From: JBFLXN01 sp040755715 [NCBI: Candidatus Edwardsbacteria bacterium]
Lineage (GTDB): Bacteria > Edwardsbacteria > AC1 > JBFLXN01
NCBI GenBank assembly: GCA_040755715.1
Contig: JBFLXN010000059.1
Span: 1 to 14,376 of the forward strand
DNA length: 14,376 bases
Direction of reading: 5' to 3'
Shown here: piece after piece, positions 1-3,648 of the stretch
Layout of the letters: every line of letters starts with the position of its first letter
How positions within the stretch are numbered: the stretch's first letter is position 1
Translations under genes and position numbers: made by a program
Notes under the pieces: generated by a model
Databases searched by the model: none
What the model was told of the DNA's origin: nothing
The model's input: only the letters and a program-made list of their open reading frames with translations

Positions 1-26
1 TAAATAAACAGCCTATCTTCATCCAT
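1..26 (-). CDS. Possible start of an unidentified gene, cut by the window edge
   Basis: An ATG at 24-26 on the minus strand opens a frame reading MDEDRLFI before the window ends. It is preceded by a good Shine-Dalgarno sequence, AAGGAG, with a four-base gap to the ATG. It would be the next gene downstream of the FAD dehydrogenase. Eight residues are too few to assign a family. The alpha subunit of the dehydrogenase is one guess from context only. Between this start and the dehydrogenase stop (27-155) the plus strand is strongly pyrimidine-rich and shows no convincing gene. Confidence 0.35.
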
Positions 27-126
27 AAAGCTCCTTAAATCTCTTCTCTTATCTCCCCAATCTCTCTCTTTTTCTTCTCTTCATCCCTAATCTTTACTTA
101 TATTTCTCATTTTGCAGAAGTCTATA

Positions 127-161
127 ACTATCAACTATAAACTATCTACTATCCACTATTT
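127..161 (+). repeat. 7-bp tandem array, consensus ACTATNN, five units
   Basis: Five consecutive 7-bp units of the form ACTATNN run from 127 to 161; the first four bases are constant and the last two or three vary. It is the same family as the arrays at 1293-1324 and 1611-1645, in the same orientation as the latter. The stop codon of the dehydrogenase (156-158 on the minus strand) lies inside it, so the array has become the end of that gene. Confidence 0.8.
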
Positions 162-1289
162 CATCACTTCTGCTTCGGCAAATTTCCTACTCAAGGCGAA
201 TTCTGAAATAGGTGGTGAAGTTTTTTGGCTAGTTATGAATTCAGCCATTATCTTTCCTAAGGCTGGACCGAGCATAAATCCATGCCCGCACATCCCGCCA
301 CAAACATAGAATCCCTCTATTTCAGTTCTATCTAAAATTGGATTGCCATCCGGTGTCATCTCATAGCTCCCAGCCCATTGTCTAATCACTTTCACATTTT
401 TCAAAGAAGGAACTAGCCGCACCATCCTTCGCGGCATATCTGTAAGAAATTCAAAAGAACTGTCTACTCGTTTGCCCGGCACCGGGGGAACAGGTGTATA
501 ACACCCGATGAATTGGCCGGTAGGGTGAACCTGCAAAAAATAACAGCCATCAGGACGATAGTCAACTAACATTGGCTCAAACAATTTCTCCACTCCTTCA
601 GTAATCAAGGCTTCGTGCCTTTCAGGCTCAACCGGAATCTCCACCCCCACCATCTTTCCTACTTCTTTTACCTCAGGCCCGGCAGCATTCAAAACCATTC
701 CCGCAGAATATTTTTCACCCTTGCTGGTCTTTATTCCATTTACTCTGTTCCCTTTTACGATAATCTCCTTCACTTCAGTATAGGAAAATATCTTTCCACC
801 ACATCTTTTGATACCTTTTGCATATTCGTAAGTCACAGAAAAAGGATTTGCCTGACCGTCAGTTGGACAATAGGCACCGCCTAAAAGACCATCAGTATTC
901 AAACCGGGAATGATTTTTTTGACTTCTTGAGAGGTGACAAATTCTACTGGCAGTCCTACAGATTTTTGCAATGAAATTGCCTTTAAATAGTCATTCTTCT
1001 TCTCTTCGCTATGGGCTAAGAATAAATATCCTCCTTGATACCATTCCACAGATTTGCCAAACTCTTCCTCCATCTGACTAAATAGAGATACACTCTGTAT
1101 CATCAATTTGACCATACTCTTTGTCGTGAATTGCTGTCTGACTCCTCCAATGCATCGTCCGGTTGAACCGGAGCAGAGGTATTCTTTTTCAAAGAGAAAG
1201 ACTTTTAAACCACTTTTAGCAAGATAGTAACTGGTGGCGCAGCCGATGATTCCGCCACCGATGATAATCACATCTGCATTTCTGCTCAT
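156..1289 (-). CDS. FAD-dependent amine/amino-acid dehydrogenase, sarcosine oxidase beta (SoxB/DAO) type
   Basis: This 377-residue protein is a flavoprotein of the glycine/sarcosine oxidase (DAO) family. It opens with a dinucleotide-binding fold, DVIIIGGGIIGCATSYYL, followed by the acidic end of the second strand (FEKEYLC) and the stretch SGSTGRCIGGVRQQF typical of SoxB, HcnC and dye-linked proline dehydrogenase beta subunits. The C-terminal FAD-contacting motif GGMCGHGFMLGPALGK is intact. The family oxidises secondary amines or amino acids and passes electrons through partner subunits; the [2Fe-2S] BFD protein upstream in the operon would be such a partner. I chose the ATG at 1289 because MSRNADVIIIGGG starts directly before the FAD fold. 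The upstream ATG at 1322 would add 11 residues encoded purely by the 7-bp repeat array. No clear Shine-Dalgarno precedes it, as expected if the array displaced the original leader. The substrate cannot be told from sequence. Confidence 0.85.
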   Translation of the reverse strand: MSRNADVIIIGGGIIGCATSYYLAKSGLKVFLFEKEYLCSGSTGRCIGGVRQQFTTKSMVKLMIQSVSLFSQMEEEFGKSVEWYQGGYLFLAHSEEKKNDYLKAISLQKSVGLPVEFVTSQEVKKIIPGLNTDGLLGGAYCPTDGQANPFSVTYEYAKGIKRCGGKIFSYTEVKEIIVKGNRVNGIKTSKGEKYSAGMVLNAAGPEVKEVGKMVGVEIPVEPERHEALITEGVEKLFEPMLVDYRPDGCYFLQVHPTGQFIGCYTPVPPVPGKRVDSSFEFLTDMPRRMVRLVPSLKNVKVIRQWAGSYEMTPDGNPILDRTEIEGFYVCGGMCGHGFMLGPALGKIMAEFITSQKTSPPISEFALSRKFAEAEVMK

Positions 1290-1292
1290 AAT

Positions 1293-1324
1293 ATAGTTTA
1301 TAGTTCGTAGTTCATAGTTCATAG
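1293..1324 (-). repeat. 7-bp tandem array, left arm, four and a half units
   Basis: On the minus strand this reads as repeated GAACTAT-like heptamers with single-base changes (an A-to-C variant and a G-to-A variant). It is inverted relative to the array at 1611-1645. It starts two bases after the stop codon of the original four-helix-bundle frame and ends just before the dehydrogenase ATG. Confidence 0.8.
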
Positions 1325-1325
1325 A

Positions 1326-1581
1326 TTATAGAGACTGCTTGATTGAGTTAGCCAAACTCGTCAGCATTTTACCAATTTCATTCCCTCTTTGAAAAACGGC
1401 CTTTCCCTTCAGCAATATTCATAGCAATGGATGTAACAGCAGATTCTGCCTGCTCTATCAGTCTGAAATGCTTCCTGTCTGTATTAAGGTTCTCAAGGGC
1501 ATCAATGACAATATTAGCAAACTCTATCGCCTTTTGCCAAACTTCCAGTTCTTCAAATCCAAATTTAGCCTCTTTTTCCAT
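1326..1581 (-). pseudogene. Four-helix-bundle protein (23S rRNA intervening-sequence/Avd-like), internally deleted
   Basis: The frame from the ATG at 1581 gives 67 residues. They match the first half of the IVS-type four-helix-bundle family (TIGR02436): FEELEVWQKAIEFANIV near the N-terminus, then a helix ending in the signature SIAMNIAEGKGRFSKRE. A stop follows at 1378-1380. The family is usually about 115-125 residues. Directly after this, in another frame, lies a perfect family C-terminus, IGKMLTSLANSIKQSL, ending at the TAA at 1326-1328. About 35-40 residues of the middle are therefore missing and the remainder is out of frame; the junction is near 1380. A good Shine-Dalgarno, GGAGGT, sits five bases before the ATG. 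Members of this family have no catalytic activity and are often found in many copies per genome. Confidence 0.8.
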
Positions 1582-1610
1582 TACACCTCCTAATTTTAGT
1601 GACCCGCCAC

Positions 1611-1645
1611 GAACTACGAGCTATGAACTATGAACTATCAACTAT
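1611..1645 (+). repeat. 7-bp tandem array, right arm, five units
   Basis: Five 7-bp units with consensus GAACTAT run from 1611 to 1645, each differing from consensus by at most one base. The stop codon (1628-1630) and the last five codons (IVDSS) of the [2Fe-2S] protein are encoded by the array. Confidence 0.85.
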
Positions 1646-1915
1646 GTCTTGCTTGCCTAATATTTCCAAAGTAATTGGTTTCAGGGGGGGGCGAGTGGTG
1701 GGGATTAGGATTTTTTCTATCTTCTGACTGGTTTCCCGGACTAATAGTTGACTAATCAATCGCCGACAAGTTCGTCCTTGACAGTGTCCCATACCACAGC
1801 GAGTGATTCGCTTTATTTCCTCAAGTGTTCTAAAACCTTTGCGAATCGCGGTCAATATTTCCTCTTCGGTTACATCCTCACACCGGCAGATGATAATTGA
1901 ACCCTTTTTCTTCAT
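1628..1915 (-). CDS. BFD-type [2Fe-2S]-binding protein, electron-transfer partner of the dehydrogenase
   Basis: A 95-residue protein of the Fer2_BFD family. Four cysteines expected to hold a [2Fe-2S] cluster are present: C10 and C12 in IICRCEDVT, then C45 and C50 in TRCGMGHCQGRTC. This spacing matches the small domain found in HcnA-like proteins and in dye-linked amine and proline dehydrogenases, where it relays electrons between flavins. The usual tail, RPPLKPITLEILG, is followed by KQDIVDSS, whose last residues come from the 7-bp repeat array, so the native C-terminus has probably been replaced. The ATG at 1915 overlaps the stop of the UPF0597 gene as ATGA, which indicates translational coupling. 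A run of eight C on the coding strand (1684-1691) falls within the RPP codons. The family call is firm; the exact partner complex is inferred. Confidence 0.85.
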   Translation of the reverse strand: MKKKGSIIICRCEDVTEEEILTAIRKGFRTLEEIKRITRCGMGHCQGRTCRRLISQLLVRETSQKIEKILIPTTRPPLKPITLEILGKQDIVDSS

Positions 1916-2716
1916 ATTCTTTTCGTATGACTCTTTAATATTTTTACTAAATTCTCTTCAGTTCGGGACATACTTTTGGAAATCAATCCAATATTTTTTA
2001 CTGTGTCTTTAAAAGTTTCACTTACAATGCCATTTCCAGCAGGTATAATTACTCCATTCAGAGCCAAGAGGCTACATTGAATGGCTGAGACACTGGCTGA
2101 AGACAACTTAATCGCACATCCTGTCTTTGCGCCATCACACAGAGTTCCAACAATGTTTCCCGAAATATTTCTTATTGCTCCTTCAATTTGCTTGCTTGTT
2201 CCACCTAAGAGATAAGTAATACCTCCAGCCGCACCTATTCCAGATTTTACCACACAGCCACAGATTGGTGTTAGATAACCTGTATAATAGGTAACATAGC
2301 AGGTCAGAAGAATAGATAGTCCTACAGATTCAAGTATTTTATCCTGACGAATTTTATTTTTCTTGCCTGCTACCAGAATGGGAATAATAGAGACGATACC
2401 TTTCTGCTTTTTTAAAATCGTTTTTAGAGATAGTGGAAAAAAGGTTCAGACCTGATTGTGGATTACAGAAGATTCCCAAAGTAGCGGCGATGTCTATTCC
2501 GATTTTGCTACCAGTTCTTGGCAGACCAACAGCAAAAGAATTTTTATAGACATTCCGGTCAACGGTCAAAATAATTCTGTCAATCTGTGGTGGCTTTATC
2601 CCTTTCTTTTCACTTAAAGTTTTAAAGGCATAAGCAGAAGCCAATCCCACTGCACTGGGTTCGGTACAGCCTAAAACTGGTTTTACCTGTTCTTTAAGTA
2701 AAGTAGATACTGTCAT
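1912..2716 (-). pseudogene. UPF0597 L-cysteine desulfidase / serine dehydratase alpha-like gene, internally deleted
   Basis: Two frames on the same strand together give both ends of one UPF0597 (YhaM/CdsB) protein. The first part, from the ATG at 2716, carries LLKEQVKPVLGCTEPSAVGL with the family's N-terminal cysteine and the segment NSFAVGLPRTGSKIGIDIAA, ending around NDFKKAE. At about 2400 the family sequence jumps to the other frame and resumes at GIVSIIPILVAGKKNK, then TPICGCVVKSGIGAAGG, TLCDGAKTGCAIKLSSASV and on to the stop at 1912. Intact members have about 430 residues; roughly 180-190 from the middle are missing and the frame is shifted. The cysteines thought to bind the [4Fe-4S] cluster survive. 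The family cleaves L-cysteine to sulfide, ammonia and pyruvate, or is related to serine dehydratases. The last frame overlaps the [2Fe-2S] gene by four bases. A TTG at 2740 could be an alternative start. Confidence 0.85.
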
Positions 2717-3506: not shown

Positions 3507-3648
3507 GGTTACGATGCTCGTATCGTAAATCTTGAGAAAGTTTGCACAGTTTTTTGGGTTTACATAGTCTCTTGGGTTATAAAACTCAAGAAACTCAATG
3601 AACTCAATAAACCTAATAAACTTATTAACCGAAACGGACATCGTAACC
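3507..3648. repeat. Repeat cluster bounded by a 10-bp inverted repeat
   Basis: GGTTACGATG at 3507-3516 is matched exactly in inverse at 3639-3648. On the minus strand the right end continues as irregular GGTTAC/GGTTAA hexamers up to about 3668. Inside are two copies of TTGGGTT (3554-3575) and the 9-bp tandem array at 3583-3627. This fills the gap between tgt and the DUF4159 gene; no coding frame is evident in it. Confidence 0.6.
3583..3627 (+). repeat. 9-bp tandem array, consensus AACTCAATA, five units
   Basis: Five consecutive 9-bp units start with AAC; the three central ones are AACTCAATG, AACTCAATA and AACCTAATA, and the outer two are more diverged. This is a separate repeat family from the 7-bp arrays. 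Confidence 0.75.

Follow-up and report, generated by a model that had tools for sequence, protein, structure and literature searches.

The closest described systems are the intervening sequences (IVSs) of 23S rRNA and, as small genes bounded by repeats, the RAYT/REP elements. The latter consist of a small gene between inverted repeats, are intergenic, and occur in several copies per genome. In Coxiella burnetii, the 23S IVS carries an S23p open reading frame (ORF), has a 28-bp terminal stem, is excised by RNase III, and displays tandem heptamers upstream of the ORF, according to the part of the article available to us (PMC4990558). Genes of the 23S_rRNA_IVP type have also been located in 16S as well as 23S insertions of CPR bacteria (PMC11270868) and within cas loci, for example at cmr2/cmr3 in Pleurocapsa, where they are counted as CRISPR-linked functions (PMC3936711; PMC10910872), again as given in the accessible portions of these articles. 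The accessible text of a further article likens 23S_rRNA_IVP to the Avd protein of diversity-generating retroelements (PMC10053308). Finally, the TAACTGA heptamers of Beggiatoaceae, Cyanobacteria and Bacteroidetes form intergenic, direct arrays of 7-mers near start codons; in the portion of the article at hand, neither an S23 nor a helix-bundle gene is mentioned (PMC4679880).

The window, by which we mean the whole 14,376-nucleotide stretch of Candidatus Edwardsbacteria DNA that was analyzed, carries a gene of the PF05635 (23S_rRNA_IVP) family between two protein-coding genes. Positions 1292-1645 are, in our view, probably one copy, now decayed, of a small mobile element in which a PF05635 gene lies between inverted tandem arrays that constitute its ends. 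The features of the locus are listed below.

1628-1915, minus strand: Fer2_BFD [2Fe-2S] protein, the upstream host gene, with its stop codon inside array A3
1609-1645, plus strand: array A3 of GAACTAT units, the arm upstream of the minus-strand gene, overlapping the 3' end of the Fer2_BFD gene
1586-1591, minus strand: Shine-Dalgarno sequence AGGAGG of the four-helix-bundle gene, identified by eye, preceding the ATG
1378-1581, minus strand: four-helix-bundle ORF (23S_rRNA_IVP, PF05635), truncated, 67 amino acids
1326-1382, minus strand: C-terminus remnant of the PF05635 gene in another frame, ending with TAA at 1326-1328
1292-1332, minus strand: array A2, GAACTAT units on the minus strand, the downstream arm of the element
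156-1289, minus strand: DAO-family FAD oxidoreductase, the downstream host gene, with its ATG directly after A2
126-159, plus strand: array A1, a third array of the GAACTAT unit, at the 3' end of the oxidoreductase gene, outside A2-A3 and of uncertain membership in the element

The initial annotation had described two arrays of GAACTAT type in opposite orientation, a four-helix-bundle gene with its own Shine-Dalgarno sequence between them, and a position between a [2Fe-2S] gene and its dehydrogenase partner. The arrays are real: no period-7 array of the strength of A2 and A3 appeared in 300 dinucleotide shuffles of the window, and the two arms match each other with a score of 24 when inverted and of 9 when direct. 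The Shine-Dalgarno sequence was found as described, and Pfam places the neighboring genes in the Fer2_BFD and DAO families. The last codons and the stop of the Fer2 gene are overlapped by A3. The family of the central gene was likewise correctly recognized (PF05635, E 1.2e-13; TIGR02436, E 1.4e-11), but the gene is not intact. ORF 1378-1581 covers only positions 1-57 of the 106 positions of the Pfam profile, that is, its first half, while a peptide in the next frame, GNEIGKMLTSLANSIKQSL, resembles the C-termini of the family from about residue 95 on, with a best score of 44 that was equalled by only one of 200 shuffled peptides. Because the C-terminus-like peptide lies in another frame, the gene would have lost both its middle (approximately 35-40 residues) and its frame; judged from its reading frames, it is a decayed copy.

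The third array, A1, matches A2 in inverted orientation with a score of 18 and A3 in direct orientation with a score of 20. It is perhaps the end of another copy, either lost or lying off the window. Located past the oxidoreductase gene, A1 is so oriented that it and A2 bracket that gene as a further inverted pair. Two other observations concern the remainder of the window. A gene resembling the serine dehydratase alpha family (PF03313) at 1912-2740 is apparently split into ORFs 2354-2740 and 1912-2253, the Pfam match being in the second only, and possibly represents a broken gene or a sequencing error. A separate tandem array of a 9-mer, AAACTCAAT, occupies another intergenic gap at 3582-3628 and has no adjacent IVS gene.

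With the 23S IVS, the window shares a PF05635/S23 ORF (here truncated), terminal inverted repeats, and a sporadic distribution, as far as the accessible description of the IVS goes. The two differ in setting, since the IVS resides in rRNA and is cut out by RNase III whereas the window copy lies between the protein genes Fer2_BFD and DAO. Furthermore, arrays in both arms and copy-specific units are not mentioned for the Coxiella IVS in the available part of PMC4990558. Like RAYT/REP, the window has a small gene between inverted repeats; unlike it, the gene is PF05635, no Y1 transposase domain was found in the scanned ORFs, and the ends are arrays of period 7 instead of palindromes without that period. 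More generally, none of the 20 window ORFs scanned encodes a transposase, a Y1 protein or a reverse transcriptase. This last point also sets the window apart from the system of Avd, a related four-helix-bundle protein that works with a reverse transcriptase and with template and variable repeats, in the accessible account of it. The TAACTGA type is characterized by one fixed unit per genome and by arrays that are nearly always single and direct, according to the same portion of PMC4679880. In the relatives of the window, the units of PF05635 genes vary from copy to copy. Overall, the window copy appears to resemble a 23S intervening sequence placed outside rRNA, and what seems to be new is the combination of inverted arrays with a non-rRNA setting. 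In a literature search that had most subscription papers and all preprints outside its range, we recognized no description of non-rRNA copies flanked by inverted arrays, or of their movement.

A literal search for GAACTAT arrays around other copies of the gene gave little. Three GAACTAT units with at most three mismatches were found at just 16 places, confined to 7 of the 31 related genomes searched, the same 31 in which PF05635 produced 209 matches distributed over 29 genomes. The reversed control pattern of this search outnumbered GAACTAT in several genomes. It occurred at 31, 25 and 49 places in genomes G014, G018 and G024, respectively, which contain many arrays of another heptamer-like unit. 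The idea that arrays are absent from other copies was overturned, however, once any unit was allowed. The unit is copy-specific, which explains the scarcity of GAACTAT arrays in the related genomes; the flanks of related copies carry other units in inverted arrays, for instance TTCGGTN/ACCGATA and AGAAGAT/CTTCTTA. The expectation of arrays flanking other copies therefore survives the failure of the literal test, since the unit differs from one copy to the next.

Inverted arrays are a common property of PF05635 genes in the genomes sampled. Flanks were scored by the local match between the 250 nt upstream of each copy and the reverse complement of the 250 nt downstream, with a threshold of 18 that was chosen on the first of two sets. 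Set 1 comprises 146 of 157 copies, the window's own included, drawn among the matches listed of the 209; 11 copies with short or N-rich flanks were dropped. Among these listed matches, 59/146 copies reached the threshold in inverted orientation and 18/146 in direct orientation, compared to 2/146 when flanks were swapped (within the same genome where possible) and 6/704 for other genes. Excluding the window's copy leaves 58/145, present in 24 of the 29 genomes. Set 2 comprises 108 of 113 copies (5 dropped), mostly the best match per genome and hence mostly intact, and was scored with the same procedure and threshold; it derives from further genomes (7 of 12 with matches) and from three phylum samples centered on Aminicenantes, Neomarinimicrobiota and Caldithrix genomes. 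Here the inverted score was reached by 77/108 copies and the direct score by 23/108, with 7/540 for flanks swapped across genomes and 3/80 for other genes. By group, the counts in set 2 were 19/25, 25/28, 17/27 and 16/28. A total of 87/146 and 31/108 copies remained below the threshold in the two sets. Note that copies are not independent and that the sets are partly related: at 60% protein identity they collapse into 70 and 60 clusters, of which 38 and 41, respectively, hold an array-bearing copy.

Copies on plasmids behaved in a similar manner. In 14 of 31 matching records (12 cyanobacterial, one from Azospirillum and one from Gemmatirosa), 12 copies scored at least 18 and the remaining two scored 17; four of these records are related Nostocales with alike units, in which swapped scores rose up to 29. 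The phage records searched yielded no match. Several plasmid IVS genes of cyanobacteria lie between cas genes, one between cas10 and cmr3 (locus L327) and two between cas6 and cas4 (L329 and L330). Their array flanks suggest that these genes are insertions rather than cas genes.

The same comparisons bear on coincidence, the notion that heptamer arrays are dispersed over gaps and neighbor these genes only by chance. Solitary arrays do exist. In a plain count of tandem arrays, which is a weak measure, an array was present on either side of 19/148 PF05635 copies and 18/556 control genes, and A1 beside the oxidoreductase gene is another example. In the same count, however, both sides were occupied in 4/148 copies and in none of the 556 control genes. 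The scores of sets 1 and 2 contradict chance as well, and among the set-1 control genes whose gaps to both neighbors measured 80 nt or more, only 5/305 reached the inverted score. We regard coincidence as having a negligible probability.

Within a copy, unit and period are common to both arms, and the unit follows the lineage of the protein and differs between copies even within one genome. Autocorrelation of the PF05635 flanks peaked at lags of 7, 14 and 21 in both sets, with a weaker series at 8 and 9 in set 1 and no such series in control flanks. Paired arms had median lengths of 41 and 40 nt. The same period was found in both arms in 82 of the 83 copies that have arrays in both flanks, and the 77 both-side copies scoring at least 18 included 52 with a period of 7, 18 with 8, three with 9, two with 10, one with 6, and one that was mixed. 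When arms were defined by period alone, without selection on match score, the order of unit variants was partly mirrored between arms, with a mean rank of 0.326 (0.5 indicating no order), ranks of 0.05 or less in 17/83 copies, and ranks of 0.95 or more in none of the 83.

This mirrored order agrees with one alternative, an RNA-processing hairpin in which the arms would pair in the transcript, the ORF would occupy the loop, and RNase III would excise the insert as in the 23S IVS, the arrays being kept for the sake of RNA pairing and not as ends at the DNA level. The Coxiella IVS speaks in its favor too, given that its ORF belongs to the same family and that it combines the terminal stem, RNase III excision and upstream heptamers described above. 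Against it, differences between arms showed no excess of changes that keep G-U pairs (126 vs. 123 and 156 vs. 154), which indicates that RNA pairing is not the visible constraint, and a search of Rfam with window positions 1-2500 returned no match. Such a hairpin would be compatible with mobility, but as an explanation of the arrays we consider it unlikely.

The location of the elements is also patterned. IVS genes lie between two same-strand genes in 94/140 cases, compared to 527/1004 for other genes. In 16 of 37 array-bearing copies on the same strand as the preceding gene, the outer edge of the upstream arm was within 15 nt of the preceding stop codon, and in 9 it overlapped the end of the gene. 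In loci L058 and L069, IVS elements seemingly lie right beside tRNA genes, as read from flank sequence.

If these units are inserted, related loci should exist in which the gene is missing, and the initial annotation had suggested looking for an empty site in orthologous operons. A scan of genome contigs recovered 43 oxidoreductase loci, and in 15 of them, including the 8 closest, Fer2 is the immediate upstream neighbor (the aligned Fer2 and oxidoreductase parts are separated by -4 to 166 nt); no Fer2 match was found upstream in the other 28. Searches of all 43 loci with 40 family proteins and with the hidden Markov model gave no IVS match. The Fer2-oxidoreductase gap without IVS in the related loci implies that, in the window, this gap has either received an insertion or been replaced. 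Further pairs of filled and empty sites could be compared in several places. In the closest of them (L111 vs. L131, with flanks 90-95% identical), the element starts immediately behind the upstream gene's stop codon and ends a few nucleotides before the next start codon, replacing the intergenic sequence of the empty site rather than forming a clean insert. No target duplication was readable at the filled and empty sites compared, where no empty site was close enough. Of the traits of classical IS and MITE elements, inverted ends and empty sites are thus present, with ends that are arrays of a copy-specific unit. In addition, one gene cluster, present in five related genomes (loci L091, L110, L111, L131 and L092), holds 5, 3, 3, 2 and 3 IVS matches, respectively, at junctions that partly differ between genomes.

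The relationships among copies provide a record of both inheritance and movement. Flank sequence was common to most pairs of copies with proteins at least 70% identical and rarely to pairs below 50%. Among 139 pairs at least 60% identical, 55 shared the neighborhood on both sides and 62 shared no neighbor (46 of them with enough context). The clearest case of movement appears to be a pair of copies in genome G173, the only clean recent duplication found. The two occupy separate junctions within a single cluster of same-strand genes, at a distance of 3.3 kb, and their core is 94.8% identical; the match sets in where the upstream array starts and stops a few nucleotides beyond the downstream array, with no further match found. 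Note that the arms of the pair score 17 each, just below the threshold. A second family, in genome G138 (L365-L369), has arrays and lesions (the same stop codon and deletions) that are common to distant decayed copies, and perhaps reflects non-autonomous spread. However, a number of other short tandem arrays and shared repeats form a mosaic around its copies, and for this reason we did not count the family as proof that defective copies move.

These data also weigh on an alternative in which the genes have no mobility of their own, being carried by recombination and by horizontal transfer of neighborhoods, with arrays that are regulatory or translational and supply multiple purine-rich units resembling Shine-Dalgarno sequences upstream of the gene. 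On the coding strand, purines made up more than half of the upstream arm in 86% and 82% of cases, which fits this reading, as do the many close pairs that are syntenic on both sides. It does not account well for the pairs without a common neighbor or for the two copies at two junctions of one cluster, and a regulatory array leaves the inverted downstream arm unexplained. We find this alternative quite improbable. The reading of the locus as an element with repeat-array ends, proposed in the initial annotation, is in part supported by the arrays at other copies in both sets and on plasmids, by the empty sites, and by one recent copy pair that carries arrays; it required amendment in that the gene is broken and the third array had been overlooked.

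Three families were considered as the partner enzyme for such movement. One possibility is that Y1 (REP-associated) transposases mobilize the elements in trans, the arrays playing the part of REP hairpins, and co-occurrence gives it some appeal. Counts of Y1_Tnp and IVS were associated in two phyla with odds ratios of 8.9 and 8.6 and rho of 0.63 and 0.65, values that are uncorrected for kinship, as are the weaker ones obtained for DDE_Tnp_1 (odds ratios of 4.3 and 5.2, rho of 0.35 and 0.49) and, in one phylum, for RVT_1 (odds ratio of 5.1, rho of 0.36). However, 7/37 and 7/42 of the IVS-bearing genomes had no Y1 match, and the flanks of Y1 genes from the same phyla (L371-L410, 37 of 40 loci usable) were of palindrome type, with 22/37 reaching the inverted and 18/37 the direct score and no period of 7. 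Since Y1 flanks are palindromic and lack period 7, their kind of end differs from that of PF05635 arrays. The Y1 transposase was consequently rejected as the mobilizer, co-occurrence being present but anatomy not, and this explanation is, in our estimate, very unlikely. The reverse transcriptase was set aside as a partner on the basis of a co-occurrence weaker than that of Y1.

We return to the mobile element with array ends, for which the following steps can be envisioned. The protein would recognize its own arrays and bring the ends together, and it would mark the unit for an enzyme supplied in trans, and insertions would be tolerated mostly in intergenic gaps. The window gene has lost its middle and, for this reason, this copy would not be autonomous. 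A sequence search of structures identified one solved PF05635 relative, 2gsc, with five chains; the available part of PMC4990558 describes this protein as a homopentamer that forms a toroid. A ring-shaped protein binding a tandem array is plausible. We had also considered that five units per arm might fit a pentamer, but arm lengths that peak at 4-5 units spread widely (median 6) and short arms escape detection, so nothing follows from them.

A broader proposal can be put forward tentatively, and we hold it with somewhat less than even confidence: PF05635 genes may be the core of an unrecognized class of minimal mobile elements in many phyla, whose ends would be, in place of fixed terminal repeats, inverted tandem arrays of a short, lineage-drifting unit read by the element's own ring-shaped protein, with rRNA IVSs and the IVP genes of CRISPR operons as special cases. 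Many bacteria encode numerous PF05635 proteins, whose annotation goes no further than 'four helix bundle protein' or 'S23 ribosomal protein'. With an array end that is shared yet copy-specific, the family acquires a role (recognition of arrays) and a lifestyle (movement) that can both be tested. Array ends also offer a common frame for rRNA intervening sequences, and the PF05635 genes found in CRISPR and other operons may be insertions and not working parts.
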